Assembly: GCF_000214355.1 (NCBI RefSeq) | Contig: NC_015577.1 | Location: 2,188,453-2,252,452 of the forward strand | Reading direction: 5' to 3' | Length of the DNA stretch: 64,000 nt | DNA from: Leadbettera azotonutricia ZAS-9 | GTDB lineage: Bacteria > Spirochaetota > Spirochaetia > Treponematales > Breznakiellaceae | Part shown: piece by piece, positions 17,181-30,685 of the stretch | Numbering within the stretch: position 1 is the stretch's first letter | Layout of the letters: each line of letters starts with the position of its first letter | Notes under the pieces: model-generated | Told to the model about the DNA's origin: nothing | Databases searched by the model: none | The model's input: only the letters and a program-made list of their open reading frames with translations | Translations under genes and position numbers: made by a program

Positions 17181-18800
17181 ATGAAAAAGTCCCTGCGTCC
17201 CATTTCTTCTTTATATATTCTCATTTTATTGGGGGTACTGGCAGCGCCCCTGGCGTTTGGCCAGGTAAACCGCGACGAATTGAGCGATCTTGGGCCAGTT
17301 GAATTCATCAACTATGAAGGCCCCTATTCCCGTATAGAGACCAGGGCCCAGATCAAGGCCATTGGCTATTCCCTGGGGGTCATGATACGCACAGGCCAGA
17401 CAAGGGCAGGCGGCACAGGCCGCTACTTTGTGATCCATTCGGTCTCCCCTGCGGATGGCTTTAAGCTTGACGCCGATGTTTTCGGCCTCGGCGTGGATAT
17501 CGGCGTTGACCATGTGCGTAACCTCCGCCTCATCATTCAGGGCTACCTAGAGGCTGCCTATAGCTACACAGAAAAAGATGCCGCCCTTCTGGCTGAATAC
17601 ATCACTATCTACAACGCCGTTTACCGGGGAGACCTGAAATATTTCAGTTCCCGCTATAAGGCTCCGGTAATGGACAACGTTACCCAGGATAAAGCCGGCC
17701 TTTCCATACGTTACGATGAATGGCCCGGCCGTACCCTCATGCTCATCCCGTTGGGCATGGGAAGCGCAGGCCCCTTAAGCAACATCGACACGACCCCCCT
17801 CACGGATTCCAAAGTCACCGAACAGCTCAGGCAGGAACCCGACAAGAGCCTGGATACCCGGAAGGATATGGTGGACCTCAAGGAACGCCAGTCCGATCAG
17901 GCGAGCCAGCAGGCTGCCATCCAGAAAGATGCCATTAAAGAGGAAGAGCAGAAGCAGGCCCAGCAGCAGCAAGAAGCCCGGCAGCAGCAGCAAGAAGCCC
18001 AGCAGAAGCAGCAGCAAGCCGCACAGGAAAAAGAGCAGGTAGCCCAGGAAAGGCAGAACCCCAATGCCGATCAGAAGGCCCTGGATCAGAAACAGCAGGA
18101 AGCTGAACAGAAAGAACAGGAAGCCCGGAGGCAGCAGCAGGAAGCTGAGCAGAAAGAGCAGGAAGCCCGGCAAAAGCAGCAGGAGCTGGAAAAGCAGAAA
18201 CAGGAAGCTGACCAAACCCAGCAATACGCCGATCAAAAGGCCGACGAGGCCCAGCAGGACAGGCAGGGCATTGCACAGGATCAGCAGTCCCTTATCAACC
18301 AGCAGCCCGTCCCGCCCCCGGCAGAAGGAGTCCTGGGAGTCACCATCCTTACCCCCAATGCCTCCCTTGGCCGGATAGTAAAACTCAACCCCGACAACGG
18401 CCAGGAAGTACTCCGCTCGGGCCTCAACACTGCGAACGCCCGGAGCGTCACCCTTGCTGACGGCAAGATAATCGCCATAGCCGGCGAGAACCGGGGCAAC
18501 GGCGCGATACGCCTCATCCAGATCAACGCGGACACCCTGGAAATGATCAAACAGGGCGACGACGACATCAGCCCCAACAGCTTGATATGGGCAAACGGCG
18601 CAGACCTCTACGCCATAACATCATCGGGCGGCAACCTCTACCTGGCCCGCTTCAATTCCGATTTGGCAAGGCAGGCCCGTTCCTCGGTAACCATTCACCC
18701 CTTTGCCTCAGTTATCATAAGCGGCTCAAGCCTCATCACCCAAAGGGCGGACGGCACAGCGCTGCTGCTGAACCCGAAGGATCTGTCGGAGAAGAGGTAA
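17181..18800 (+). CDS. P83/100-family exported protein with Gln-rich coiled coil
   Basis: Spirochaete-specific family first known as the Borrelia burgdorferi P83/100 antigen. The 539-residue protein has a signal peptide (ILILLGVLAAPLAFGQ), a conserved N-terminal domain (FINYEGPYSRIETRAQIKAIG, then FGLGVDIGVDHVRNL), a long Gln/Glu/Lys/Ala coiled coil at about residues 232-375 made of short QQQEA/KEQEA-type repeats, and a C-terminal domain with beta-propeller-like strands. AAGGAGCG precedes the ATG. The internal repeats are encoded by near-repetitive CAG/GAA-rich DNA at about 17940-18250, which may vary between strains. Function is unknown; a periplasmic structural role is inference. Confidence 0.85.
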   Translation: MKKSLRPISSLYILILLGVLAAPLAFGQVNRDELSDLGPVEFINYEGPYSRIETRAQIKAIGYSLGVMIRTGQTRAGGTGRYFVIHSVSPADGFKLDADVFGLGVDIGVDHVRNLRLIIQGYLEAAYSYTEKDAALLAEYITIYNAVYRGDLKYFSSRYKAPVMDNVTQDKAGLSIRYDEWPGRTLMLIPLGMGSAGPLSNIDTTPLTDSKVTEQLRQEPDKSLDTRKDMVDLKERQSDQASQQAAIQKDAIKEEEQKQAQQQQEARQQQQEAQQKQQQAAQEKEQVAQERQNPNADQKALDQKQQEAEQKEQEARRQQQEAEQKEQEARQKQQELEKQKQEADQTQQYADQKADEAQQDRQGIAQDQQSLINQQPVPPPAEGVLGVTILTPNASLGRIVKLNPDNGQEVLRSGLNTANARSVTLADGKIIAIAGENRGNGAIRLIQINADTLEMIKQGDDDISPNSLIWANGADLYAITSSGGNLYLARFNSDLARQARSSVTIHPFASVIISGSSLITQRADGTALLLNPKDLSEKR

Positions 18801-18843
18801 AGATTTAGAAGCAAGCGCATCGAAGCGCGGTTTCGCGGATCAT

Positions 18844-18905
18844 AAAAAGGCACAGAGCGCAAAGAGAGAATTTTGATTCTTTCGATGCATTCTGTGCCTT
18901 TTTTT
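18844..18905. terminator. Bidirectional hairpin terminator between convergent genes
   Basis: AAAAAGGCACAGA at 18844-18856 pairs with TCTGTGCCTTTTT at 18891-18903. The loop holds a second small inverted repeat (AGAATTTTGATTCT). A T-run follows on the plus strand and the complementary A-run serves the minus strand, fitting termination of both the P83/100 and EamA genes. Confidence 0.65.
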
Positions 18906-19317
18906 AAAATATCAAAATAAAAGTTCCAAGAGTAATAAATATTCCGCCTAGTATTGTTTTTAACGAAACGCTTTCCTTTAATATGATAAATGCCAGCGCC
19001 ATTCCGATAACGAGGCTGAATTTATCAACAGGCATTACTTTTGACGCATCTCCTATCTGCAATGCCTTGTAATAACACAACCATGATAATCCGGTGGCGA
19101 TTCCCGAAAGAATTAAAAACAACAAATTCCTATGCCCGATGTTTGCAATATCGTTCTGTTTTCCGGTTATAAACACAATACTCCACGAAAGAATCAAAAC
19201 AACAATGGTTCTAATAGCGGTCGCCAAATTTGAATTGACATTTGCGATGCCAATTTTTGCAAAAATTGAAGTCAAAGCCGCAAAAAAAGCCGACAACAGG
19301 GCATATAATATCCACAT
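18904..19317 (-). CDS. Half-size EamA-type drug/metabolite transporter
   Basis: A 137-residue membrane protein with four to five hydrophobic helices (WILYALLSAFFAALTSIFAK, AIRTIVVLILSWSIVFI, LLFLILSGIATGLSWLCYY, FSLVIGMALAFIILKE, LGGIFITLGTFILIF). This matches one EamA half-domain, as in small transporters that dimerise. Substrate is unknown. Its AT-rich composition marks the left edge of the accessory island. It converges with P83/100 at a shared terminator. Confidence 0.75.
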   Translation of the reverse strand: MWILYALLSAFFAALTSIFAKIGIANVNSNLATAIRTIVVLILSWSIVFITGKQNDIANIGHRNLLFLILSGIATGLSWLCYYKALQIGDASKVMPVDKFSLVIGMALAFIILKESVSLKTILGGIFITLGTFILIF

Positions 19318-19472
19318 ATTATTTTATCTTACCACTATTTAATAAAATGTCCAGACCAGGCAGCGAGAAGAATTTAACCGCCAAGGACACGAAGGAAGAG
19401 GAAAAGATCAGGGGGCTATATCAAATAAGAAGTCATCTTCCGCACATCTTACAATTTAAAAATATATATTAA

Positions 19473-19756
19473 CAAAAAGGCTCATTTTATAAATCCTTTA
19501 CCGGCCTACCCAAAAGAATTGTAATACATAAAAGAACTCCATTTAGACATGATGAAATATCAGGTCTTGTTAAGAGTTTATCGGCATCAGGAATAACATA
19601 GACCTGCTCGAAATAAATTATGAAGAAGATTTAAAATGCTTTGAATATTCCCGAAATAATATTTCTATTGATAGATTCCCTGTAAAAAGAGGTTTATGCT
19701 TCCCGGTTAATAAAAAGACTATATATTTATATACACATGGTATCGCACCTTCTATT
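19473..19756 (+). pseudogene. Decayed C-terminal fragment of a Piwi-domain (prokaryotic Argonaute) gene
   Basis: Two overlapping frames together encode what looks like the second half of a Piwi domain. Frame one reads YKSFTGLPKRIVIHKRTPFR and ends at a stop near 19600; after a one-base loss the next frame continues IDLLEINYEEDLKCFEYSRN, IDRFPVKRGLCFPVNKKT and IYLYTHGIAPSI. This parallels the region of long Argonautes around the third catalytic Asp through the strands that follow, but that Asp is not present here (HKRTPF). There is no start codon. The frame is cut at 19757 by an IS66-type end. Assignment is from pattern similarity only. Confidence 0.55.
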
Positions 19757-20004
19757 GTAACCGTCAAAATAACCGCTTCTGGACAAGAAGACAGGAACTG
19801 ATAAACTTCCGCTAACAAGACAAACCGGAGGTCAAGATGAAGCGATACAGCGAAGACGAAAGGGCGATGTGGGTAGAGGATTGGAAAGAGAGCGGGATGA
19901 GCCCTGCAGCATATGCCAAGGCAAATGAGCTAAACTCCCAGTCATTGAGGAATTGGGCAAACGGGGAAACCGGAGGGCGGAGATTTAAAGTCAGCTCATA
20001 TTGA
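19757..20004 (+). mobile_element. Left end remnant of an IS66-family element
   Basis: The segment begins GTAACCG, fitting the GTAA.. termini of IS66-family elements, and abuts the Piwi remnant. It then carries a small TnpA-like ORF at 19837-20004. No tnpB, tnpC or right terminal repeat is present nearby, so only the left end survives. Confidence 0.5.
19837..20004 (+). pseudogene. Truncated IS66 TnpA (orfA) protein
   Basis: A 55-residue ORF with CCGGAGGTCAAG directly before the ATG. It begins MKRYSEDERAMWVEDWKESG and continues through AAYAKANELNSQSLRNW, the helix-turn-helix pattern of the small IS66 accessory protein TnpA. The C-terminal half of a normal TnpA is missing. It probably has no function alone. 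Confidence 0.5.
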
Positions 20005-20022
20005 TACCGTTCCCCGGGGTGA

Positions 20023-20166
20023 TCACCTTATCGGAGCCATAAACCGACCGATCCGTCGGTAAAGTTCTTGGGCTATGGTTGTGGTCCATTCTTTGCCTTC
20101 ACTGTCCTTGATGGTGATTTGAAGGAATCTTGGAGCTTTGGGGTCTCTTTTGGCTGGTTCCGGCAT
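20023..20166 (-). CDS. Small hypothetical ORF in accessory island
   Basis: A 47-residue ORF starting MPEPAKRDPKAPRFLQITIK and ending RRIGRFMAPIR. AAGGAA lies about 7 nt before the ATG. The composition resembles coding sequence, but there is no recognisable family and no second copy in the window. It may be a remnant of an inserted element. Confidence 0.3.
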   Translation of the reverse strand: MPEPAKRDPKAPRFLQITIKDSEGKEWTTTIAQELYRRIGRFMAPIR

Positions 20167-20235
20167 GGGTGGCTTCCTTTTTGGTTGACCATCCCCTAAA
20201 ATATTGATATAAGGTAGATTTTTTTCAATATGTAA

Positions 20236-20264
20236 TTGACAAAAACATTTGATTTTGGTAGGAT
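20236..20264 (+). promoter_or_regulatory. Sigma-70-type promoter upstream of the HNH gene
   Basis: TTGACA at 20236-20241 and TAGGAT at 20259-20264 are separated by 17 nt. About 140 nt of leader would follow before the TTG start at 20408. The leader contains an inverted repeat, GGCCATA at 20351-20357 and TATGGCC at 20371-20377, that could fold. Confidence 0.45.
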
Positions 20265-20407
20265 TCTCTTTGTATCTGCGGAAAGGCTAAGGATCCGGTT
20301 AAGGTTGCATCTGCTGGGAAGAAGCCTGTAGGGAAGAAATAGAGATGGGTGGCCATAGGTCTTCATTTTATATGGCCTCTTCTTAAACTTTATAAAGGGG
20401 TATTGTT

Positions 20408-21283
20408 TTGGGTAAAAGGACAAATCCTTCTGATGTTGCAAATGCCTTTATTCGTTGCTTATTAAGTGATATAAGCGAAATTTATGGCGGCTTTTCGGAT
20501 GAAGATGAAGAAAAAACAAGAGAAAAGTTTACAAGAAAAAAAATTTTAAGATGCATTTATTCGGGAAAAGAGTTAAAAAATGGTAACTATTCTTGGGATC
20601 ATTTAATACCGATTAATCAAACTAAATGCGGGCTTAATCTCTTTGGTAATGTTGTTCCAGTATTAGAAGAATATAATTCGGAAAAGGGGGGGACAACCTA
20701 TATTGAATTTATTAAGAATCACGATATTTTTGACAATTTGAAACCTAAAGAGAAAGAAAAATTAATTAAGAAAATTGAAAAATTTCAAACTAAAAGCAAT
20801 TATTCTGCTAAGGTTAAAGCTATTGGTGACCTGCAAGAAATTTGTGAAGAAGAATATGATAAAATTACAAACTTGTGTAAAAAAAATGCAATAAAATACA
20901 GTAAAATAATTTTAAAAAATAATAAAGGGTTATTAAGTGCATGCTCTACCAAAAAGCCAAAAGGAAATTATACGAAAGACGAATTGAAGATTATTAAAAC
21001 TAAAATAAACAAATGGAGCAAAAAGCCTGATTATAATCATCATAAAATAATTGCATTATTTATTAAAAAGACTAAGGTTGATCCAAAGAATGGTTTTGAT
21101 TTGAATAAATTTATTGATGCAATCGGAAAGTGTAACTATTCTCAAAATCCTCTAGCTGCTATCAGAAGTTTGATGACAAGTAAGGGGCATGCTTATGGTA
21201 AAATATTTATGGAAGAAAAGGGAAAAATTAAATTTGTTTCAGAAATAGATGAGCAAATAAGGAAATTACCTTGGAAATTGTAA
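20408..21283 (+). CDS. HNH endonuclease-like protein, AT-rich
   Basis: A 291-residue lysine-rich protein. Residues about 49-90 give an HNH-type core: CIYSGKELKNGNYSWDHLIP with DH as the catalytic pair, then NLFGNVVPVLEEYNSEKGG supplying the Asn and C-terminal helix. The rest is helical and unassigned. The start is TTG, with AAGGGG seven nucleotides upstream. It is far more AT-rich than the core genome. It could be a restriction or defence nuclease, but no methyltransferase of the restriction type is adjacent. Confidence 0.6.
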   Translation: MGKRTNPSDVANAFIRCLLSDISEIYGGFSDEDEEKTREKFTRKKILRCIYSGKELKNGNYSWDHLIPINQTKCGLNLFGNVVPVLEEYNSEKGGTTYIEFIKNHDIFDNLKPKEKEKLIKKIEKFQTKSNYSAKVKAIGDLQEICEEEYDKITNLCKKNAIKYSKIILKNNKGLLSACSTKKPKGNYTKDELKIIKTKINKWSKKPDYNHHKIIALFIKKTKVDPKNGFDLNKFIDAIGKCNYSQNPLAAIRSLMTSKGHAYGKIFMEEKGKIKFVSEIDEQIRKLPWKL

Positions 21284-21319
21284 ATTATCTTTCTTTTATT
21301 CATCTAGCATCATAATATT

Positions 21320-22183
21320 ATGAACCTTTCCAAATCCCGTTATTGCAGCGGCTTACAGTGTCCCAAAATTCTCTGGATGCAGAAGAATATACCCGATGAA
21401 TATGATGATGGAGTGATGAACCAGGGGATACTTAATACGGGTAATGAGATTGGTGATTTAGCCATGGGTTATTTCTGTACATTTTCCGAAGTTCCCTATA
21501 ATGCTGACAAATCTCTTATGATTGATGATACTAAAAAATTACTTGAACAAAAGACAAAAGTAATCACAGAAGCTTCCTTTTCCCATGATGGTAACTTCTG
21601 TAGCGTGGATATTCTCCGTTTAGTTGATGACTCATTCGAAATAATTGAGGTTAAAAGTTCCACAGGAATAAATCCCATTTATTATGACGATATGGCCTTT
21701 CAATACTATGTGCTTACCGGCTGTGGTCTCAAGGTCAAAAAAATATCCCTCATGCATATCAACAACCAATATATCAGGCAAGGCAACCTTGACCTAAATA
21801 AATTATTTACCGTTGAAGATTGCACCAATGAAGTTTTAGCAAAACAAAATGATATAGGAAATCAGATAACCTCTATCAAAAAAATCGCCGAACAAAAAGA
21901 AGAACCAGGTATAGATATAGGCCCTCATTGTAGTGACCCCTATGAGTGTGGTTTTAGTGGCTACTGTTGGAAACATATTCCTGAACAGAGTATATTTTCT
22001 ATTGCACGTTTGGCCGGGAGAACTAAATTTAATTATTATCGTCAAGGAATAATCAGTTTTGATGATGTGCTAAATAATCAGATTTCTCTCTCGGATAAGC
22101 AGCAAAATCAAGTTGAATCAGAAGTCAAGGGCCTGCCTCCAACTGTCAATAAAAAAGAAGGGCCTGTCCTGAAGTTTGTGTAA
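21320..22183 (+). pseudogene. DUF2779 nuclease gene, N-terminal fragment (broken by IS256-family insertion)
   Basis: First 280 codons of a protein whose full length was 491 residues; the last residues before the stop at 22183 are encoded inside the IS. The fragment opens SKSRYCSGLQCPKILWM, then has a Cas4/RecB-like PD-(D/E)XK core (CSVDILRLVDD.. IIEVKSS.. DDMAFQYYVL) and a cysteine cluster HCSDPYECGFSGYC that may bind an Fe-S cluster with the N-terminal Cys. Removing 22160-23508 and 24856-24859 plus the IS5 element restores one continuous frame 21320-22159, 23509-23609, 24860-25394. Confidence 0.8.
22152..22159. repeat. 8-bp target-site duplication, left copy
   Basis: AAAAAGAA directly precedes the IS256-family element and is repeated at 23501-23508 directly after it. 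Eight base pairs is the usual duplication length for this family. Confidence 0.85.
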
Positions 22184-23500
22184 ATGGCCAAAATATGGTA
22201 GAAATACCAAGGAGACAAAATGGCCAGTACACGAAAACTGAAAGAGAAGGATCTGATCGACCAAATACTCGATCAGATAGACCTTAAAGGAATGACCCAG
22301 GAAGAAATCCTTGGACAGGAAGGATTATTAAAGCATCTGACAGGGAAGCTGCTAAGCCGTGTCATGAATGCTGAAATGGACGAGCATTTGGGGTATGAAA
22401 AGAATTCCAACGCCGGGGACAATTCGGGGGACAGCCGAAACGGGTACAGTGAAAAGACAGTCCTGACAGAGAATCAGAGTGCAGTGATACAGGTACCACG
22501 GGACCGCAATGGAACGTTCGAACCCAAGATACTGGCGAAACACCAAAGACGGCTCCCTATATTTAACGACCAGGTTATTTCGATGTATTCCTTTGGGATG
22601 ACCGACCGGGATATTAAATCACACCTGGAAAAAATATATAACGTGGAAGTCTCCCCTGAATTGATAAGCCGTGTCACTGCAGCGGTGATGGAAGAAGTGA
22701 AGGAGTGGCAGAATCGGCAGCTGGAAAAATCTTATGCCATCGTGTATTTGGACGCCCTGAGGGTCAAGACCAAACAGGACGGGAAAAGCTGTACCAAGAG
22801 CGTCTATGTGGCTCTGGGAGTGAATTTCGAGGGTCAGAAGGAGGTATTGGGCCTTTGGATAGCGGAGAACGAAGGGGCTAAGTTCTGGATGGGCGTCCTG
22901 AACGAAATAAAGAACCGGGGAGTGGAAGACATACTCATCGCTTGCATGGACGGCCTTACCGGTTTCCCCGAAGCGGTTCGGGCAGTATTTCCCAAGACCC
23001 GTATCCAATTGTGCATTGTCCACATGGTGCGTAATTCCACCAAGTTTGTTTCCTGGAAAGACCTGAAAAAAATCTGTGCCGATCTTAAGGCCATATATTC
23101 GGCAGCCACCGAGGAAGCCGGCCGTGACGCACTGGAAGAATTCGGCAAGATATGGGATGCCAAGTACCCGATGATATACCAGTCCTGGGATACCCACTGG
23201 GATGACTTAAGCGAGTTCTTTAAATACCCGCCTGAAATCCGCAAGGCAATTTACACGACAAATGCAATTGAGTCATTAAATTACCAGCTGCGAAAAGTCA
23301 CAAAAAACCGCTCGACATTTCCGAACGATGATGCTATATTTAAGATATTGTATTTGGCAATTAGGAATGCGTCAGAGAAATGGACAATGCCGGTACGGGA
23401 TTGGGGGATGGCGCTCAACCAATTCGCTATTATTTTTGGCAATGAACGGGTTCCGTTCTAAATAATTCATTGCCATTTACACAAAAATTCGGACACGTCC
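22160..23500 (+). mobile_element. Complete IS256-family insertion sequence, 1341 bp
   Basis: Imperfect 29-bp terminal inverted repeats match at 23 of 29 positions; the inner part TTTGTGTAAATGGC is identical at both ends (left start GGGCCTGTCC, right start read inward GGACGTGTCC). It is flanked by the 8-bp duplication AAAAAGAA and carries one intact transposase gene. It interrupts the DUF2779 gene after codon 280. The perfect duplication and intact ORF indicate a fairly recent insertion. Confidence 0.92.
22220..23461 (+). CDS. IS256-family (mutator-type) transposase
   Basis: 413-residue DDE transposase. It has the family N-terminus (GLLKHLTGKLLSRVMNAEM), then the catalytic acids in IVYLDALRVK, ACMDGLTGFPEA and TTNAIESLNYQLRK. 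It is full length and uninterrupted, so potentially active. The ATG follows an AAGGAGAC Shine-Dalgarno sequence. Confidence 0.95.
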   Translation: MASTRKLKEKDLIDQILDQIDLKGMTQEEILGQEGLLKHLTGKLLSRVMNAEMDEHLGYEKNSNAGDNSGDSRNGYSEKTVLTENQSAVIQVPRDRNGTFEPKILAKHQRRLPIFNDQVISMYSFGMTDRDIKSHLEKIYNVEVSPELISRVTAAVMEEVKEWQNRQLEKSYAIVYLDALRVKTKQDGKSCTKSVYVALGVNFEGQKEVLGLWIAENEGAKFWMGVLNEIKNRGVEDILIACMDGLTGFPEAVRAVFPKTRIQLCIVHMVRNSTKFVSWKDLKKICADLKAIYSAATEEAGRDALEEFGKIWDAKYPMIYQSWDTHWDDLSEFFKYPPEIRKAIYTTNAIESLNYQLRKVTKNRSTFPNDDAIFKILYLAIRNASEKWTMPVRDWGMALNQFAIIFGNERVPF

Positions 23501-23508
23501 AAAAAGAA
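23501..23508. repeat. 8-bp target-site duplication, right copy
   Basis: AAAAAGAA, identical to 22152-22159. The DUF2779 frame resumes at the next base (23509). Confidence 0.85.
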
Positions 23509-23609
23509 ATAAGATCATTTTTAAAAACCTTAACATTCCCCTTATACTTCCTGGACTTTGAAACTTTCATGCCGGCCATCCCTCCATTTGACGGTTGTTG
23601 GCCTTATAT
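23509..23609 (+). pseudogene. DUF2779 gene, middle fragment between two insertion sequences
   Basis: This 101-bp stretch continues the frame of the N-terminal fragment and encodes IRSFLKTLTFPLYFLDFETF followed by MPAIPPFDG. YFLDFETF is the first motif of a DEDD-type 3'-5' exonuclease (RNase H-like) domain. The IS5-family element begins immediately after it. Confidence 0.85.
23606..23609. repeat. 4-bp target-site duplication, left copy
   Basis: ATAT precedes the IS5-family element and is repeated at 24856-24859. Merging the two copies restores the codons TAT ATG CAA of the DUF2779 gene. Confidence 0.75.
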
Positions 23610-24855
23610 GGGAACCTCTAAAAACCACTTATTAAATATCCTGACATAGCTTATTAAATAATTTTTTTTGGAATTGATAAGAAAAAAACGAAAAATTGAT
23701 ATAATTGGGCTTATTTATTGCCTCATTCATTCGCTCTTGCCCACAATCGTGTGTCGTGGACAGACTCCCCTTATGCATATGCCCGCTTTCCCCTCATAAG
23801 AAATATATACCGCCAGAAATTATAGGTCAAATTCATAAGCGCTATGTTAGCGTGTGCCCGTGCCATCCCTATACTCCGGACCACTATCCCTCTCATCGTA
23901 TTCGTCATCGTGGCAAATACATGCTCAACCCGCGCCCGTATTTTCGATTTCCGCGTGTTGTTCGCTTTTTGTGTCTTTGTTAACGGCCGGTTCCGGTATC
24001 CTTTCTCATGTATCCGATTTTTTGCCTTCCTGGGTATGCATTTCTGTATCTCTCCCCCAACATAGGCACTATCCGCATACAAAATGTTATCTTTCTCATC
24101 CACCAATTTTGATAATTCCTGACTGTCATGTACTGCTGCACTGGTCGTACTGAACTTCGTTATCAGTTTGCTTTCCGCGTCTATTTTTATATGGTCTTTA
24201 TATCCGTAATGCCGTTCCTTGTTTTTGGTCGCCCACCGGGCATCAATGTCCTTTTGTGACTTTTTATGCTTTTTCTTTTTTCCTTCCCATTCTTCAGGCA
24301 CCTTGCCTTCCTTTATCTTCTGGTTTTCCGCCTTGCTGTTCCGCTGCCGCGGCGCATCCACAAAGGTCGCGTCCACTATGCTTCCGCTGTAGCTTATTAT
24401 TTCCTGCTCCTCAAGCTGCCTGACAAATCGGTAAAATATCGTATCCAATATGTTTGCCTTTACCAGTTCTTCCCGAAAATGCCATATCGTTTTCGCGTCG
24501 GGAACGGTATCGCACAGAGCCAATCCCAGAAACCGTTGAAAACTCAACCTGTCTTTTATTTGGTATTCGGCCTGATCGTCACTTACATTGTACAGTTTTT
24601 GCAATATCAGTATTTTAAACATCATTACGTAATCAAAGGGCGGTCTGCCTCCCGGCCCCTGCGCCTCTTTTTTCAACGTTTTATTTAATATCCCCCGAAA
24701 ATTATCCCATTTAATGTATTTGTTTAATTTTTCCAGGGGATCGCCGAGCGCGCTTAATTCTTTAAGCCTATCATTTTCATCAAAAAATCCATGCTGTTTC
24801 ATGAATTTATTTTATCACAGTTCAGCTTGTTTTTAAAGAGTTTTTAGAGATGCCC
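23610..24855 (-). mobile_element. Complete IS5-family insertion sequence, 1246 bp
   Basis: Terminal inverted repeats of 16 bp, GGGAACCTCTAAAAAC on the left and GGGCATCTCTAAAAAC read inward on the right (14/16 match), are flanked by an ATAT duplication. The element carries one intact transposase gene on the minus strand. It sits 110 bp beyond the IS256-family element in the same target gene and in the opposite orientation. Confidence 0.9.
23771..24802 (-). CDS. IS5-family transposase
   Basis: 343-residue DDE transposase. The N-terminal helical domain (GRPPFDYVMMFKILILQKLY, LSFQRFLGLAL) is typical of IS5, and the catalytic acids are in GSIVDATFVDAP, LYADSAYVGGE and RARVEHVFATM. The region PEEWEGKKKKHKKSQKDIDA is the usual lysine-rich insert. 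The gene is full length and appears intact. Confidence 0.94.
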   Translation of the reverse strand: MKQHGFFDENDRLKELSALGDPLEKLNKYIKWDNFRGILNKTLKKEAQGPGGRPPFDYVMMFKILILQKLYNVSDDQAEYQIKDRLSFQRFLGLALCDTVPDAKTIWHFREELVKANILDTIFYRFVRQLEEQEIISYSGSIVDATFVDAPRQRNSKAENQKIKEGKVPEEWEGKKKKHKKSQKDIDARWATKNKERHYGYKDHIKIDAESKLITKFSTTSAAVHDSQELSKLVDEKDNILYADSAYVGGEIQKCIPRKAKNRIHEKGYRNRPLTKTQKANNTRKSKIRARVEHVFATMTNTMRGIVVRSIGMARAHANIALMNLTYNFWRYIFLMRGKRAYA

Positions 24856-24859
24856 ATAT
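24856..24859. repeat. 4-bp target-site duplication, right copy
   Basis: ATAT, matching 23606-23609. The last two bases also form the start of the ATG at 24858 that opens the C-terminal fragment. Confidence 0.75.
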
Positions 24860-25394
24860 GCAAATCCCTTTTCAATATTCTCTGCATATACTCAAGAGTC
24901 CGGATACAGAGGCAGAACATCATGAATTTCTAGCCAAAGAGGGAACAGATCCACGCCGTCCCCTGGCAGAGGCCCTTTGTAAAGATATACCCCTAAAGGT
25001 CTGCACCCTGGCTTATAATAGCGGATTTGAGAAAAGGGTAATAAAAGACCTTGCTGATTTATTCCCTGATTTATCTAATCATCTCCTTGATATACAGAGC
25101 CATATTAAAGACCTTATGACCCCTTTCCAGTCTCATGCCTATTATCGACGGGAGTTTCAAGGATCCTATTCAATTAAAACAGTTTTACCAGGACTGTTCC
25201 CTGATGATCCTGAACTCGACTATCATAACCTTGAACTAATTCAAAATGGCAGTGAAGCCATGACTGCTTTTCCCGGGTTAGAAAAGAAACGTCCGGAAGA
25301 AATCACCGCAATCCGGCAATCCCTGCTTGCTTATTGCCGGCTTGATACTCTGGCAATGGTAAAGATATGGGGATATTTGAAAGAGTTAGTATAA
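24858..25394 (+). pseudogene. DUF2779 nuclease gene, C-terminal fragment
   Basis: 178-residue open frame that is the C-terminal part of the broken DUF2779 gene. It contains further motifs of a DEDD-type exonuclease: LAYNSGFEKRVIKDLADLFP, LLDIQSHIKDLM, and CRLDTLAMVKIW, with the final Asp. GSYSIKTVLPGLFPDDPELD is the family signature. Its ATG derives from the target duplication and there is no Shine-Dalgarno upstream, so translation is doubtful. It converges with the TPR gene, whose stop is two bases away. Confidence 0.8.
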
Positions 25395-25395
25395 G

Positions 25396-26136
25396 TTATT
25401 TTACTCCATCATTGTGTTTAAGCATATATGCTTTTGTATAATCAAGTATGGCTCTGTCCAGTTCTTCCTTCAATACAAAAGCATCTCCACGATTATTATA
25501 AACACCATCATTACAAGGATCAAAATCGATCATCCTGGTATAATCGGCTATAGCTTTATCATATTCTCCTATACTGAAATATACATGCCCCCGTTTTAGA
25601 TAAGCTCTTACCAGATCGGGATCAAGATTGATTGCCTGGGTATAATCGTTTATTGCTTTTTCAAATACTCCGCATTGATAATACGAATCACCTCGACTGA
25701 GATACTTCATGCCATCCTTTGGATGAAGATTTATAGCCTGGGTACCTTCTGATATGGCTTGTGAAAATACTTCTTTAATAAACTCATCAATACCCCGATT
25801 ATTATATATGTAATTTAAATTGATAGCCTGAATAAAATCTGATTTGGCAGAAGCATGATCTCCTTTTTTGTAATATGCCATTCCACGTTCTCTATATGCC
25901 CATAATCCGGTAGGATTATTTTTTATTGAAATGGTAAAGTCAGCAATGGCGGCATCATAATCTCCCTTCATATTGTATATCCGGGCTCGATTAAAATAAC
26001 CCAGAATATCATTTGAATCAAGTTCGATCATTTTGGTAAAGTCTGCTATAGACTTTTCGTAATCAGCTATTGTCCTGTATGTAGGGCCACTTTCAAAAGA
26101 GGTTTCATCTATATCCGGAAAGTCGCAGTTGTCCAT
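25396..26136 (-). CDS. TPR-repeat protein
   Basis: 246-residue cytoplasmic protein made almost entirely of tetratricopeptide repeats, about six 34-residue units such as YEKSIADFTKMIELDSND, YDAAIADFTISIKNNPTG, FEKAINDYTQAINLDPDL and YDKAIADYTRMIDFDPCN. No signal peptide is present. TPR arrays mediate protein-protein contacts; the partner is unknown. It belongs to the AT-rich island and is convergent with the broken DUF2779 gene. Confidence 0.8.
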   Translation of the reverse strand: MDNCDFPDIDETSFESGPTYRTIADYEKSIADFTKMIELDSNDILGYFNRARIYNMKGDYDAAIADFTISIKNNPTGLWAYRERGMAYYKKGDHASAKSDFIQAINLNYIYNNRGIDEFIKEVFSQAISEGTQAINLHPKDGMKYLSRGDSYYQCGVFEKAINDYTQAINLDPDLVRAYLKRGHVYFSIGEYDKAIADYTRMIDFDPCNDGVYNNRGDAFVLKEELDRAILDYTKAYMLKHNDGVK

Positions 26137-26223
26137 TTTATGTTCCTTATTAATAAGGAATCCTAAATAATATAATGAAAAATAAATATACTATTTTTAC
26201 TAAAATTAAACCAAATCAATTCT

Positions 26224-27369
26224 TCATCCCGGTAATGGAGGTGATAATAGTATTTCAGAACGGACAAATAAATCTATATCCCATTTTTCATATGCCTTCC
26301 ATGACAGATAAATAGGATTTTGTATTTTGTTTAGTTCATAAAAAACCCATAATAAATTACCTGGATATTTTATAAACTTATATGTTAAATATTGGGCATA
26401 CCTTTCATGATAGAGACAATCATCATATTGTTTATTGTTTTTCCTATCACTAATAAATTCAAAGAAACTGGTATCAATTGGAAATATTCCCATTATCACA
26501 GCGAAATGCATTAATTCATGAATATAAACTACCTCCATTAATTCATGGGGATTAACAGAGATTTCTTTTGCAGTATCATAAATATTTTTCATAAATAGTG
26601 TTATTCTTGAAAATGGTTTAGTAATTGATGGCGAATAATTAAATCTTCCCAATGGTTCAGAAATTGTTATTTCATCTCCTATATTATGGATTGGGTCTTC
26701 TTTATGGTCAGTATAATCAAGTATTATATCAAAGTAACCAGACATGAATATCTTCTGCCGATTCATTGAAAATTTTAACATTTCAAGAATTCGAACAAAA
26801 ATACTATCAAAATTAATATCTTTTATATCAGAATATTTCAATTGTAATCCTAGCTCAAAAAAACTAAAAAGAACATCCTTATCAAAATAATCTTGTTTCT
26901 TATCAATGTAATGTGGATGCCTGATAATTGATGTGACATATTTTTCATCCCATGTAAGATATTTAAAAAGAGTAGTAGTTTGTCGATCCCAATATTGTTT
27001 ATATGTAAATATTTTTAATTTGAGAGAAATAAATGGTGTATAAATAGACAGAATATTAGGTATAGATTTTATTTTCTTACTTTTAACATTTTTCTCATAA
27101 AGGGGTATTCCTCCGGAAGCAGATTTAATAAGATCAAGAAAATCAGGATAAAATTTATAATCGTGTTCAAGATAATCAACTATTAATCTACCAATAAAAT
27201 CTTCAAATTCTGACATGAGGTGATTTTTGCTAATATTATCAATAATTTGTTGAGCTGATACATTTGTCTCTGCAAGAACACTAAAGAATTGCGGATCATT
27301 TTTTATTGACTTTAACACTTCAAAATATTTTAATTCATCTTCTATAGTTTCGTTATTTTCCGTAGCCAT
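26224..27369 (-). CDS. Hypothetical protein with HELMH (zinc peptidase-like) motif
   Basis: 381-residue soluble, AT-rich protein of no family I can name. At about residues 288-300 it reads YIHELMHFAVIMG, an HExxH motif in a hydrophobic helix, followed about 40 residues later by CLYHERYAQYL, which may supply a further ligand. This suggests a zinc-dependent peptidase, but the rest gives no support. The N-terminus is acidic and helical. It is on the same strand as the small gene and the HEPN gene upstream and could share their transcript. Confidence 0.55.
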   Translation of the reverse strand: MATENNETIEDELKYFEVLKSIKNDPQFFSVLAETNVSAQQIIDNISKNHLMSEFEDFIGRLIVDYLEHDYKFYPDFLDLIKSASGGIPLYEKNVKSKKIKSIPNILSIYTPFISLKLKIFTYKQYWDRQTTTLFKYLTWDEKYVTSIIRHPHYIDKKQDYFDKDVLFSFFELGLQLKYSDIKDINFDSIFVRILEMLKFSMNRQKIFMSGYFDIILDYTDHKEDPIHNIGDEITISEPLGRFNYSPSITKPFSRITLFMKNIYDTAKEISVNPHELMEVVYIHELMHFAVIMGIFPIDTSFFEFISDRKNNKQYDDCLYHERYAQYLTYKFIKYPGNLLWVFYELNKIQNPIYLSWKAYEKWDIDLFVRSEILLSPPLPG

Positions 27370-27417
27370 TTCCTATCCCCTTTAAAGTATTTTTTTTTCT
27401 ACCGTTAGCCAATCGGC

Positions 27418-27645
27418 TTAATCCAGCCTCATCAAAACCCCTGTCTGAAAGCCGGTCACCGAACCCCACCCATAAAACCCTGGCTTGTCATCCTTCTTCT
27501 TTTTCATCATCTGCTGTCTCTTCAGCCCGTCCCTTTTGGCTTTGGATTCTTCCAAAAAACCGGAATCAGCAGATTGGTCTTCAACATTTAATGCCTCTAA
27601 ATTCTGGTCAATTTTAAAGGGTAACCTTTTGTTTTTATCAGCCAT
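27418..27645 (-). CDS. Small hypothetical protein
   Basis: 75-residue charged protein, starting MADKNKRLPFKIDQNLEALN and ending GSVTGFQTGVLMRLD, with a lysine-rich centre (RQQMMKKKKDD). No family recognised. An in-frame TTG six bases upstream is possible, but ATG 27645 is preferred. It lies between the HELMH gene and the HEPN gene on the same strand. Confidence 0.45.
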   Translation of the reverse strand: MADKNKRLPFKIDQNLEALNVEDQSADSGFLEESKAKRDGLKRQQMMKKKKDDKPGFYGWGSVTGFQTGVLMRLD

Positions 27646-27763
27646 ATACAAACTTTATCACGATATGTGCATCTCTCAAACCCAAAATGACCTTTTTTGA
27701 ACGAATTTTTAAGAAAAATGATAAAAACTATACCTGTGTATAGTTAAATATCTCCAGATTCAT

Positions 27764-28528
27764 TTACTTGGGTGAATATTTCCTGGTAATTTCTTCAGCT
27801 ATATCCTCAAAGGATTTAAGACCGTGAGAATGTAATTCATCCCGAACCCTCTGGCCTCTGGCCGATTTTAAGGCTCCATTGAAAAAACTAAGTATTTCAT
27901 CGGTGGTTTTCATATTCTTAATCCGTATTATGGTTCGAATGAGGCTTTCTTTTATACTAGGGTCAAGGACTTCTCCTTGTTCTATAGCCTTGGATAGCAC
28001 CTTTTTTTCAATAAAATTAATCAATTCCTCCCTGTTTACATTCGATTCTGTATCAAAAACGGTAAAGGTATAATCCTGATTAGTTTTTTGAACCTCTTTT
28101 TCTAAAGCGGAGATTATTTTTTCACCTGCATTTATAAATTCTGCAAAATCCAGGATGGTGGTCAAATGCTTGGTATACTTATATGGAGACATATTTGTTT
28201 CTCGTGTGTGGGAAACAAAATTACGGATGTAATGCATATCGGTTATCACATAAACATATCTATCACAGCCGGGTATTGAATAGTTCTTTTTTATAAATCC
28301 CTTTATTGGCTGCCAGTTGTGGGAGAGGACATTTATCAAATCAAGGAAATCAAGATGTTTGTAATCCTTGTTGTACTTTTCTTCTATATAAGGAACGATG
28401 TATTTCTCCCACCATAAATCCGGAGAAAGGTGTTGAAGTATCTGACTTATGAATACATACAATGGGTCTTTGAGCATGAGAAGATACTGGTACAATTTCG
28501 TATACATAACAATTTCAGACTTTTTCAA
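27764..28528 (-). CDS. Swt1-type HEPN domain protein (probable RNase)
   Basis: 254-residue protein whose first half resembles the Swt1-like HEPN domain: LSPDLWWEKYIVPYI, FLDLINVLSHNW and, at about residues 104-109, RNFVSH, a match to the RxxxxH catalytic motif of HEPN ribonucleases. The second half is helical and ends with a segment (SARGQRVRDELHSHGLKSFE) of unknown role. HEPN proteins with this motif commonly act in toxin-antitoxin or anti-phage systems. No nucleotidyltransferase antitoxin is adjacent. AT-rich. Activity is inference from the motif. Confidence 0.6.
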   Translation of the reverse strand: MKKSEIVMYTKLYQYLLMLKDPLYVFISQILQHLSPDLWWEKYIVPYIEEKYNKDYKHLDFLDLINVLSHNWQPIKGFIKKNYSIPGCDRYVYVITDMHYIRNFVSHTRETNMSPYKYTKHLTTILDFAEFINAGEKIISALEKEVQKTNQDYTFTVFDTESNVNREELINFIEKKVLSKAIEQGEVLDPSIKESLIRTIIRIKNMKTTDEILSFFNGALKSARGQRVRDELHSHGLKSFEDIAEEITRKYSPK

Positions 28529-28569
28529 TAAACACCTTCACCTCAAGACCCAAATTGAAATGCCCCTTA

Positions 28570-28727
28570 CTACTTTGCTTTCGGCTTCTGGCCCTTCTTC
28601 TTGAGAGCATCCTTGGAAGTGGTGATTTTCTTCGATGCGGCCTTAGCCTTGGGGACAGGCTTCTTGGCCGATTCAACCTTCACTGTTTCATCAATGACCC
28701 TAGATACACTGTGAATTTGGCTGCCAT
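28570..28727 (-). pseudogene. Frameshifted lysine-rich mini-gene
   Basis: A strong AAGGAG Shine-Dalgarno stands 8 nt before the ATG at 28727. The frame begins MAAKFTV and then hits a stop, but one frame over the sequence continues SRVIDETVKVESAKKPVPKA and on to KKKGQKPKAK. A one-base loss (or two-base gain) near 28708 explains the break. The intact product would be about 52 residues with a basic, histone-tail-like C-terminus. No other complete copy is present. Confidence 0.4.
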
Positions 28728-28922
28728 AATAATGACTCCTTAATAGAAAGACAATGGATAATTATAATGAGGATAAGAAGGCTATTCAAGGTCTTTTAAG
28801 ACATTATAGTAAATTTTACACTGCTGTCCGATTTAAGTAACTAAAAAGCTTGTATTTTTCTCCTTATAATGATATATCGATATAACGATATAACGATTTT
28901 ACCACAAATCCATATATTATAA
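28728..28922. other. AT-rich intergenic stretch with short direct repeats
   Basis: No gene is seen between the lysine-rich mini-gene and the IS4 remnant. Around 28872-28900 the short unit CGATATAA is repeated (GATATATCGATATAACGATA type), which may be slippage-derived. Confidence 0.4.
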
Positions 28923-29219
28923 GGAAATACACGCTATGATGAAGTATACACAGTACTGGCCAATTTGTTAAGATCCCTGAGCGGATTTGATTTTGAAAGT
29001 ACTGTTTCAGGCTACAACGCTGACAGAGGGATATGCCTTAAGACCTACGATTTTTTCAAAGGCATGGCCTATGGCCAGCTCTCAGGATGTTTGAGCGTAC
29101 GTGAAATAGAGAACTCAATGAAAGCCATTGGTAAAAGGCTCTATCATGCCGAATTACAGCAAATGAAGAGGTCAACTTTTTTGAGGCCAGTGAAATGCTG
29201 TATTGGGGCATGGCCTTGA
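28923..29219 (+). pseudogene. IS4-family transposase remnant (N-terminal part)
   Basis: An open frame without a convincing start encodes YDEVYTVLANLLRSLSGFDF and later TYDFFKGMAYGQLSGCLSVR followed by EIENSMKAIGKRLYHAEL. This matches the DUF4372/N-terminal domain of IS4-type transposases. The frame then breaks down and runs into the methyltransferase stop. No catalytic domain or terminal repeats are seen. It is a dead fragment. Confidence 0.55.
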
Positions 29220-30005
29220 TTATTTTGTACATACGAATATCCCATCGTTTTTTGTTACCATCATTTCTTTATCGATTTCTTTTTTTAAATACTCTTTAAA
29301 TTCATCAATATATTCTTCCGGCAATATTTTTGTATTGTTTTGAATTTCGTTAAATGACAGATAATAATTTATTATTGGCTCTATTTCATTTATTTTCAAT
29401 GCGTTCTCGTGATTTATTAAAACCGCATTATTAAAAACTTTTTTTAACTGTTCCAATCCGTTATTCAAGGAAAATTTCAATTCGCTAAATTTAAAAAGAT
29501 TCCCTTTTGTTTCAAGAAATTTATATAACAATTCATGCATTTCTTTTAGATCGTCAATTCCCATTATGGACGCTATGAATATGCCATTGGGTTTTAAAAT
29601 GTCATATATATCGGAAATTGCTTTTTGTCTGTTTTCGATATGATACAGCATATTATTTGCCAATATGGCATCAAAACTGTTTTTAGTGTATTTTATATTT
29701 TCCGCATTGACAACATCATAATTGAAATTGCACTGTATCCGGGAAAGCGTCTTTTTTGTTGTTTCCAGCATTCCCCGGGAATAATCCGTAAGAGTTATTT
29801 CCCATGTCTTTGGTATACTGTTTCTATTGGTAAGCCAAAACAATCCTGTCCCGCAGCCTAATTCCAGAACCTTTAAATTTTCCCCTTTGGGAAAATGCTC
29901 AAATATCCATGCATTCTTTGGCTGTTTGTTCATTGAAAACGTTTTATGAAGATATATTCTTGCCTCATATTTTGAAGAAGATGAATATTGATTATCATTC
30001 AACAT
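29220..30005 (-). CDS. Class I SAM-dependent methyltransferase
   Basis: 261-residue cytosolic methyltransferase. Motif I is VLELGCGTGLFWL, followed by acidic TLTDYSRGMLE, then VNAENIKY and LANNMLYHI, giving a complete SAM-binding fold of the methyltransf_11/25 type. The C-terminal 100 residues are helical. Start: ATG 30005 has AAGAAGG five nucleotides upstream; an in-frame codon at 30032 would include that site in the coding region and is rejected. Substrate is unknown. It is AT-rich and marks the right end of the island, next to the Fe-S genes. Confidence 0.78.
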   Translation of the reverse strand: MLNDNQYSSSSKYEARIYLHKTFSMNKQPKNAWIFEHFPKGENLKVLELGCGTGLFWLTNRNSIPKTWEITLTDYSRGMLETTKKTLSRIQCNFNYDVVNAENIKYTKNSFDAILANNMLYHIENRQKAISDIYDILKPNGIFIASIMGIDDLKEMHELLYKFLETKGNLFKFSELKFSLNNGLEQLKKVFNNAVLINHENALKINEIEPIINYYLSFNEIQNNTKILPEEYIDEFKEYLKKEIDKEMMVTKNDGIFVCTK

Positions 30006-30091
30006 ATTTGCCTTCTTCGAGCGGAACCGCAAAAGAAGTCGAAAAAGTAAAAATTCAATAACTATTCCTTATTCAAATACCGGGGTTCTCC

Positions 30092-30685
30092 CTACATCCC
30101 GTAAATATGCGCGAACTCGTGCATAAGTTCCATGGCTTTCTTTTCGCACTTGCCGCAGACAGTGCCGATCTTGGTGGCTTGCTGGAGCTGCTCCCAGGTG
30201 CGGGCGCCGTTGTGGAACGCGTTCTCGATGTCTTTGTCGGTGATGCTTAGGCACGTGCAGATGACGGTGGCAGCTTCCTTGAGCATGCCGGCGCGGCCTG
30301 TTTTGGCAAGGTAATCGTCGATGGCGGTGCGCAGGGCTTTATCGCCCAGGACTGAACAATGGATTTTGAATTCCGGGAGGCCCCCGAGGGCTTTTACGAG
30401 GTCCTCGGGCTTGATGTTGTAGGCGTCCTTTATGTCCATGCCCTTGATGGTTTCGCTCAGCATGGAGGTTGAAGCTATGGCGCTGGCGCAGCCGTAGGTC
30501 TTCCAGCGCACATCGACGATGATGTCATCTTTTATTTTGAGGAGCATCAGCATTTGATCTCCGCACTTGATGTTTCCGGTTTGGCCCCTGGCGTCGGCGG
30601 GGAATTCTTTTTCATCCACCATCAGAACATTGCGGGGGTTCATGAAGTGGTCTTTCACTGTATCTGAATAAAGCCAGTCTGACAT
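30092..30685 (-). CDS. nifU: NifU-like Fe-S cluster assembly scaffold
   Basis: Scaffold on which [2Fe-2S]/[4Fe-4S] clusters are built before transfer to target proteins. The 197-residue protein has an IscU-like N-terminal domain with the three scaffold cysteines (IKCGDQM, YGCASA, IHCSVLG), followed by a BFD-like [2Fe-2S] region with VICTCLS and VCGKC. It lacks the C-terminal Nfu domain of full NifU, a form common in anaerobes and spirochaetes. It lies 14 nt downstream of the cysteine desulfurase in the same operon. Confidence 0.9.
   Translation of the reverse strand: MSDWLYSDTVKDHFMNPRNVLMVDEKEFPADARGQTGNIKCGDQMLMLLKIKDDIIVDVRWKTYGCASAIASTSMLSETIKGMDIKDAYNIKPEDLVKALGGLPEFKIHCSVLGDKALRTAIDDYLAKTGRAGMLKEAATVICTCLSITDKDIENAFHNGARTWEQLQQATKIGTVCGKCEKKAMELMHEFAHIYGM

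Follow-up and report, generated by a model that had tools for sequence, protein, structure and literature searches.

Introduction

Proteins in which a SIR2 domain is fused to a PIWI domain were described by Makarova et al. 2009 (PMC2743648), and both this architecture and the loss of catalytic residues in short prokaryotic Argonautes (pAgos) are already published (PMC2743648, PMC6299218). A related system is SPARSA, in which a guide RNA directs the recognition of target DNA, whereupon SIR2 is set free to hydrolyse NAD+ (PMC10474274, PMC10781750). The SPARSA of Geobacter sulfurreducens is encoded by two genes, SIR2-APAZ and a short pAgo, and its PIWI domain is catalytically dead. Substituted catalytic residues are found in all short pAgos and in all long-B pAgos (PMC6299218); the latter carry in addition N and PAZ regions.

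The window analysed here comprises 64,000 nucleotides of the genome of the spirochaete Leadbettera azotonutricia ZAS-9. A preliminary description had proposed a long-B Argonaute relic, cut by an IS66-type end and located in an island with other nucleases. Our results show a short stretch which is a pseudogene fragment and very probably derives from a gene for a single-chain SIR2-APAZ-short Argonaute protein. The dead gene is real but ordinary; it belongs to a known type of defence protein, does not constitute a working system, and no function is expected of it.

The remnant and its reading frames

Reading of positions 19300-20010 in all frames reveals a 272-base remnant (19485-19756) composed of two frames with a single frameshift between them. 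The first piece (19485-19595, plus strand) belongs to the PIWI domain and corresponds to residues 867-903 of an intact protein of Butyricimonas (L036), with 59% identity by tblastn; its peptide contains LPKRIVIHKRTPFRHDEISGLVKSLSASGI, and the fuller reading of the same frame is FYKSFTGLPKRIVIHKRTPFRHDEISGLVKSLSASGIT. The second piece (19595-19756, plus strand), with the peptide DLLEINYEEDLKCFEYSRNNISIDRFPVKRGLCFPVNKKTIYLYTHGIAPSI, corresponds to residues 905-960 with 45% identity. In the tblastn comparison of L036 with the window both pieces are consecutive in the homologue, of which a single residue is absent at the frameshift. A frameshift-tolerant alignment of L036 to the DNA scored 233, compared to at most 53 in 15 shuffles, with 19756 as the last matched base. 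Thus the joining of two frames by a frameshift, as described before, is confirmed. The remnant is no intact open reading frame, being interrupted near 19595 and ending at an IS66 terminus. Its extent has to be corrected: the two frames and the IS66 boundary are present within the originally assigned 19473-20004, but the coding remnant covers just 19485-19756, whereas 19757 to about 19995 is a truncated IS66 piece.

To the left lies a short dispersed extragenic repeat (19343-19419), of which a DNA search of the own genome found up to nine more partial copies, the best with 90% identity over 52 bases. What survives of the gene begins on the left somewhere between this repeat and 19485. No piece of the gene beyond these two was detected by profile and DNA queries in the own genome (one contig of 3,855,671 bases), which means that about 91% of the protein is missing and about 9% remains.

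Argonaute identity and the catalytic position

The joined peptide matched PADLOC model PDLC02384 best (positions 856-947 of 1030, E 8.3e-31). The match is not a product of the join, because each half alone also matches this model (E 1.4e-11 and 7.3e-15). All strong PADLOC matches are short pAgo (class I) models or SIR2-pAgo fusions, among them the short pAgo models PDLC02436 (E 2.2e-19) and PDLC02377 (E 2.5e-16) of about 460 residues; none of the class II (long) pAgo models matched at E 10 or better. In a sequence search of the PDB short Argonautes were found, the best being 8in8_C, the 473-residue Piwi protein of the G. sulfurreducens SPARSA structures 8in8/8jkz (E 5e-5). The check that had been proposed, a profile search with PF02171 and pAgo collections, gave a divided answer: the pAgo-specific models match, but Pfam, PF02171 included, yielded no match in the own genome or for the peptides. 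This miss does not refute the Argonaute origin, since the specific models match and 21 homologous loci were found (see below), both of which bear out the Piwi assignment. It also means that counts of dead pAgos based on PF02171, which misses relics of such kind, would be too low.

Alignment with the Argonaute of Thermus thermophilus (TtAgo) by hhalign places VIHKRTPF of the remnant over LLLRDGRV, with H-K-R over L-R545-D546. The preliminary description was right that the segment surrounds the third catalytic Asp and that this residue is lost: in this profile alignment an Arg in the first piece stands opposite D546, as expected for a short pAgo. The other tetrad residues lie outside the fragment. 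The lost Asp does not single out long-B proteins, because short pAgos have substituted catalytic residues as well.

Intact relatives and the origin of the remnant

A single-peptide query found no relative in the genome contigs, whereas querying about 85,000 species genomes with an alignment revealed the 21 loci. The best relative is L036 with 49% identity over the segment length, an intact protein of 1043 residues, followed by L037 of a Lachnospiraceae bin with 42% identity (intact, 1047 residues). For both, PDLC02384 is the best model and is matched from end to end (1479 and 1439 bits), and their N-terminal halves match SIR2-type pAgo-associated models. By these profile matches each of them combines SIR2, APAZ and pAgo on a single chain. 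A tree built from 35 PIWI segments places the remnant in a clade with L036, L037 and L047 (support 96/83) and with L036 alone at 99/92; however, only about 93 residues were aligned and the branch of the remnant is long (2.34), so that the exact sister is uncertain.

The remnant thus shares with the fusions of the PDLC02384 type the PIWI sequence, the HKRTPF motif and the position in the tree. Unlike them it is frameshifted, closed by an IS66 end and devoid of SIR2, APAZ and MID regions. The stretch corresponds by homology to residues 867-960 in intact proteins which are about 1045 residues long and have SIR2, APAZ and MID-PIWI regions. No SIR2, APAZ or MID sequence of this gene is left in the genome, and for this reason the fusion is deduced from its closest relatives, in which SIR2 and APAZ are present on the same chain. 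What remains is the relic of a PDLC02384 family protein and not itself a working member.

An origin from a two-gene short pAgo (SPARSA, SPARTA or SPARDA type) that has lost its partner gene has to be considered, because the models of about 460 residues match the peptide and its motifs are common to two-gene short pAgos. The full-length fused model scores clearly higher, with 105 bits versus 68 and 58 bits, and the nearest relatives with an intact gene, L036, L037 and L047, to which the tree joins the remnant, are single chains of 1043-1047 residues, which makes this origin improbable. Descent from a long-B Argonaute, as assumed in the preliminary description, is still less probable. Such proteins likewise lack the DEDX catalytic tetrad (PMC6299218), and the local order of motifs is common to all pAgos including TtAgo; but class I models and models of SIR2 fusions match where no class II model does, and the eleven pAgo-like matches in the PDB, with 429-541 residues per chain, do not reach the length of a long pAgo. 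The long-B subtype was consequently rejected on the missing class II match and the placement in the tree with the fused proteins. The region that would have encoded a PAZ or PAZ* domain is absent from the remnant.

The third possibility, that the fragment is still in use via frameshifting or as a small peptide, is hardly credible. Nothing direct speaks for it; conserved residues are kept in both frames, and this suggests a break of no great age. On the other hand, an IS end replaces the C-terminus, nearly all of the protein is gone, and no relative of it as a stand-alone gene was found. The fragment itself is most likely inactive.

For the intact single-chain form the domain content points to an action like that of SPARSA. 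Most likely the guide RNA held by the Argonaute would recognise invading DNA, and the SIR2 part would then destroy NAD+ and halt the growth of the invaded cell. In the history that we propose the gene would have been acquired with a horizontally transferred island and later broken by an IS66 insertion, deletions and the frameshift, in whichever order; a working protein would no longer be made.

The IS66 end and the island

The GTAACCG end starts at 19757, one base past the last homologous base of the Argonaute gene. The same left boundary, GTAACCGTCAA, is present in seven loci of related genomes with unrelated DNA before it, five of them strong matches. A TnpA-like frame begins at 19838 on the plus strand, and its truncated peptide matches the IS66 TnpA model NF047593 with E 5.8e-6 (26.7 bits, cut-off 28). 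This conserved left terminus adjoining TnpA assigns the piece (19757-19995) to the IS66 family, in agreement with the truncation described earlier. The element breaks off by about 19995. A second CTTCTATT within one mismatch, sought as an 8-base target duplication, was not found at 19990-20450, nor a good inverted right end up to 31000, and therefore an insertion into the pAgo gene, as opposed to a later rearrangement joining both, is not proven. The own genome contains no further convincing copy of the IS66 piece. The neighbouring piece 20071-20166 has a relative with 72% identity elsewhere in the genome, and its minus-strand peptide has no match in Pfam.

The remnant indeed lies in an island, which spans 11.3 kb (18801-30091) between a gene at 17181-18800 and nifU (30092-30685) and is ridden with transposons. 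It is absent in the relative G566, where the homologue of the former gene ends at 2324 and nifU at 2174 of locus L074, with about 150 bases between them. Either an insertion here or a loss in G566 would account for the difference from this one relative.

The view that the island still holds other nucleases is correct only in part. A 291-residue protein (20408-21283) has an HNH-like motif, but its match to PF13395 (E 0.016) is below the Pfam cut-off, and it matched no PADLOC or NCBIfam model. A further candidate, with a Cas4-like N-terminus and DUF2779, is found in two pieces (21320-22183 and 24858-25394), apparently a single gene interrupted by an IS256 element (22220-23461) and by an IS5-family element (23771-24802). 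A HEPN_Swt1-like protein (27764-28528; PF18731, E 4e-15) is a possible defence or toxin-antitoxin-type gene. Further genes encode an EamA-type transporter, a TPR protein and a methyltransferase.

Occurrence in related genomes and mobile DNA

Among 200 genomes of the family a full-type homologue was found in just one other genome. It is conceivable, although doubtful, that the spirochaete lineage once had a SIR2-APAZ-pAgo fusion, of a subgroup that today occurs in Bacteroidota and Bacillota of the gut, and that it acquired this gene via a mobile island and lost it to a transposon. In this case the agent of loss would be one kind of the mobile DNA which such systems are thought to target. The remnant records turnover of Argonaute defence genes in a family of spirochaetes that has few intact copies.

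No phage record contained the peptide, and a query with the full fused protein gave partial N-terminal matches on the SIR2 side only. A scan of IMG/VR with the alignment added two more distant pAgo loci. Matches on plasmids are short pAgos with 27-33% identity, several of them adjoining SMEK or DUF4365 genes. The intact gene of Butyricimonas (L036, 3382-6513) may be prophage-borne, because its neighbours resemble by eye genes for a phage tail or baseplate. Another fused SIR2-APAZ-pAgo, of a different subgroup and cut at the contig end, is present in a Treponema bin (L022, 11361-14177) from the family to which L. azotonutricia belongs. A fused-type pAgo of 1101 residues is encoded in a Bacteroidales bin (L050, 139-3444), and its partner in the tree is a Treponema protein (L040), a grouping which suggests exchange between phyla.
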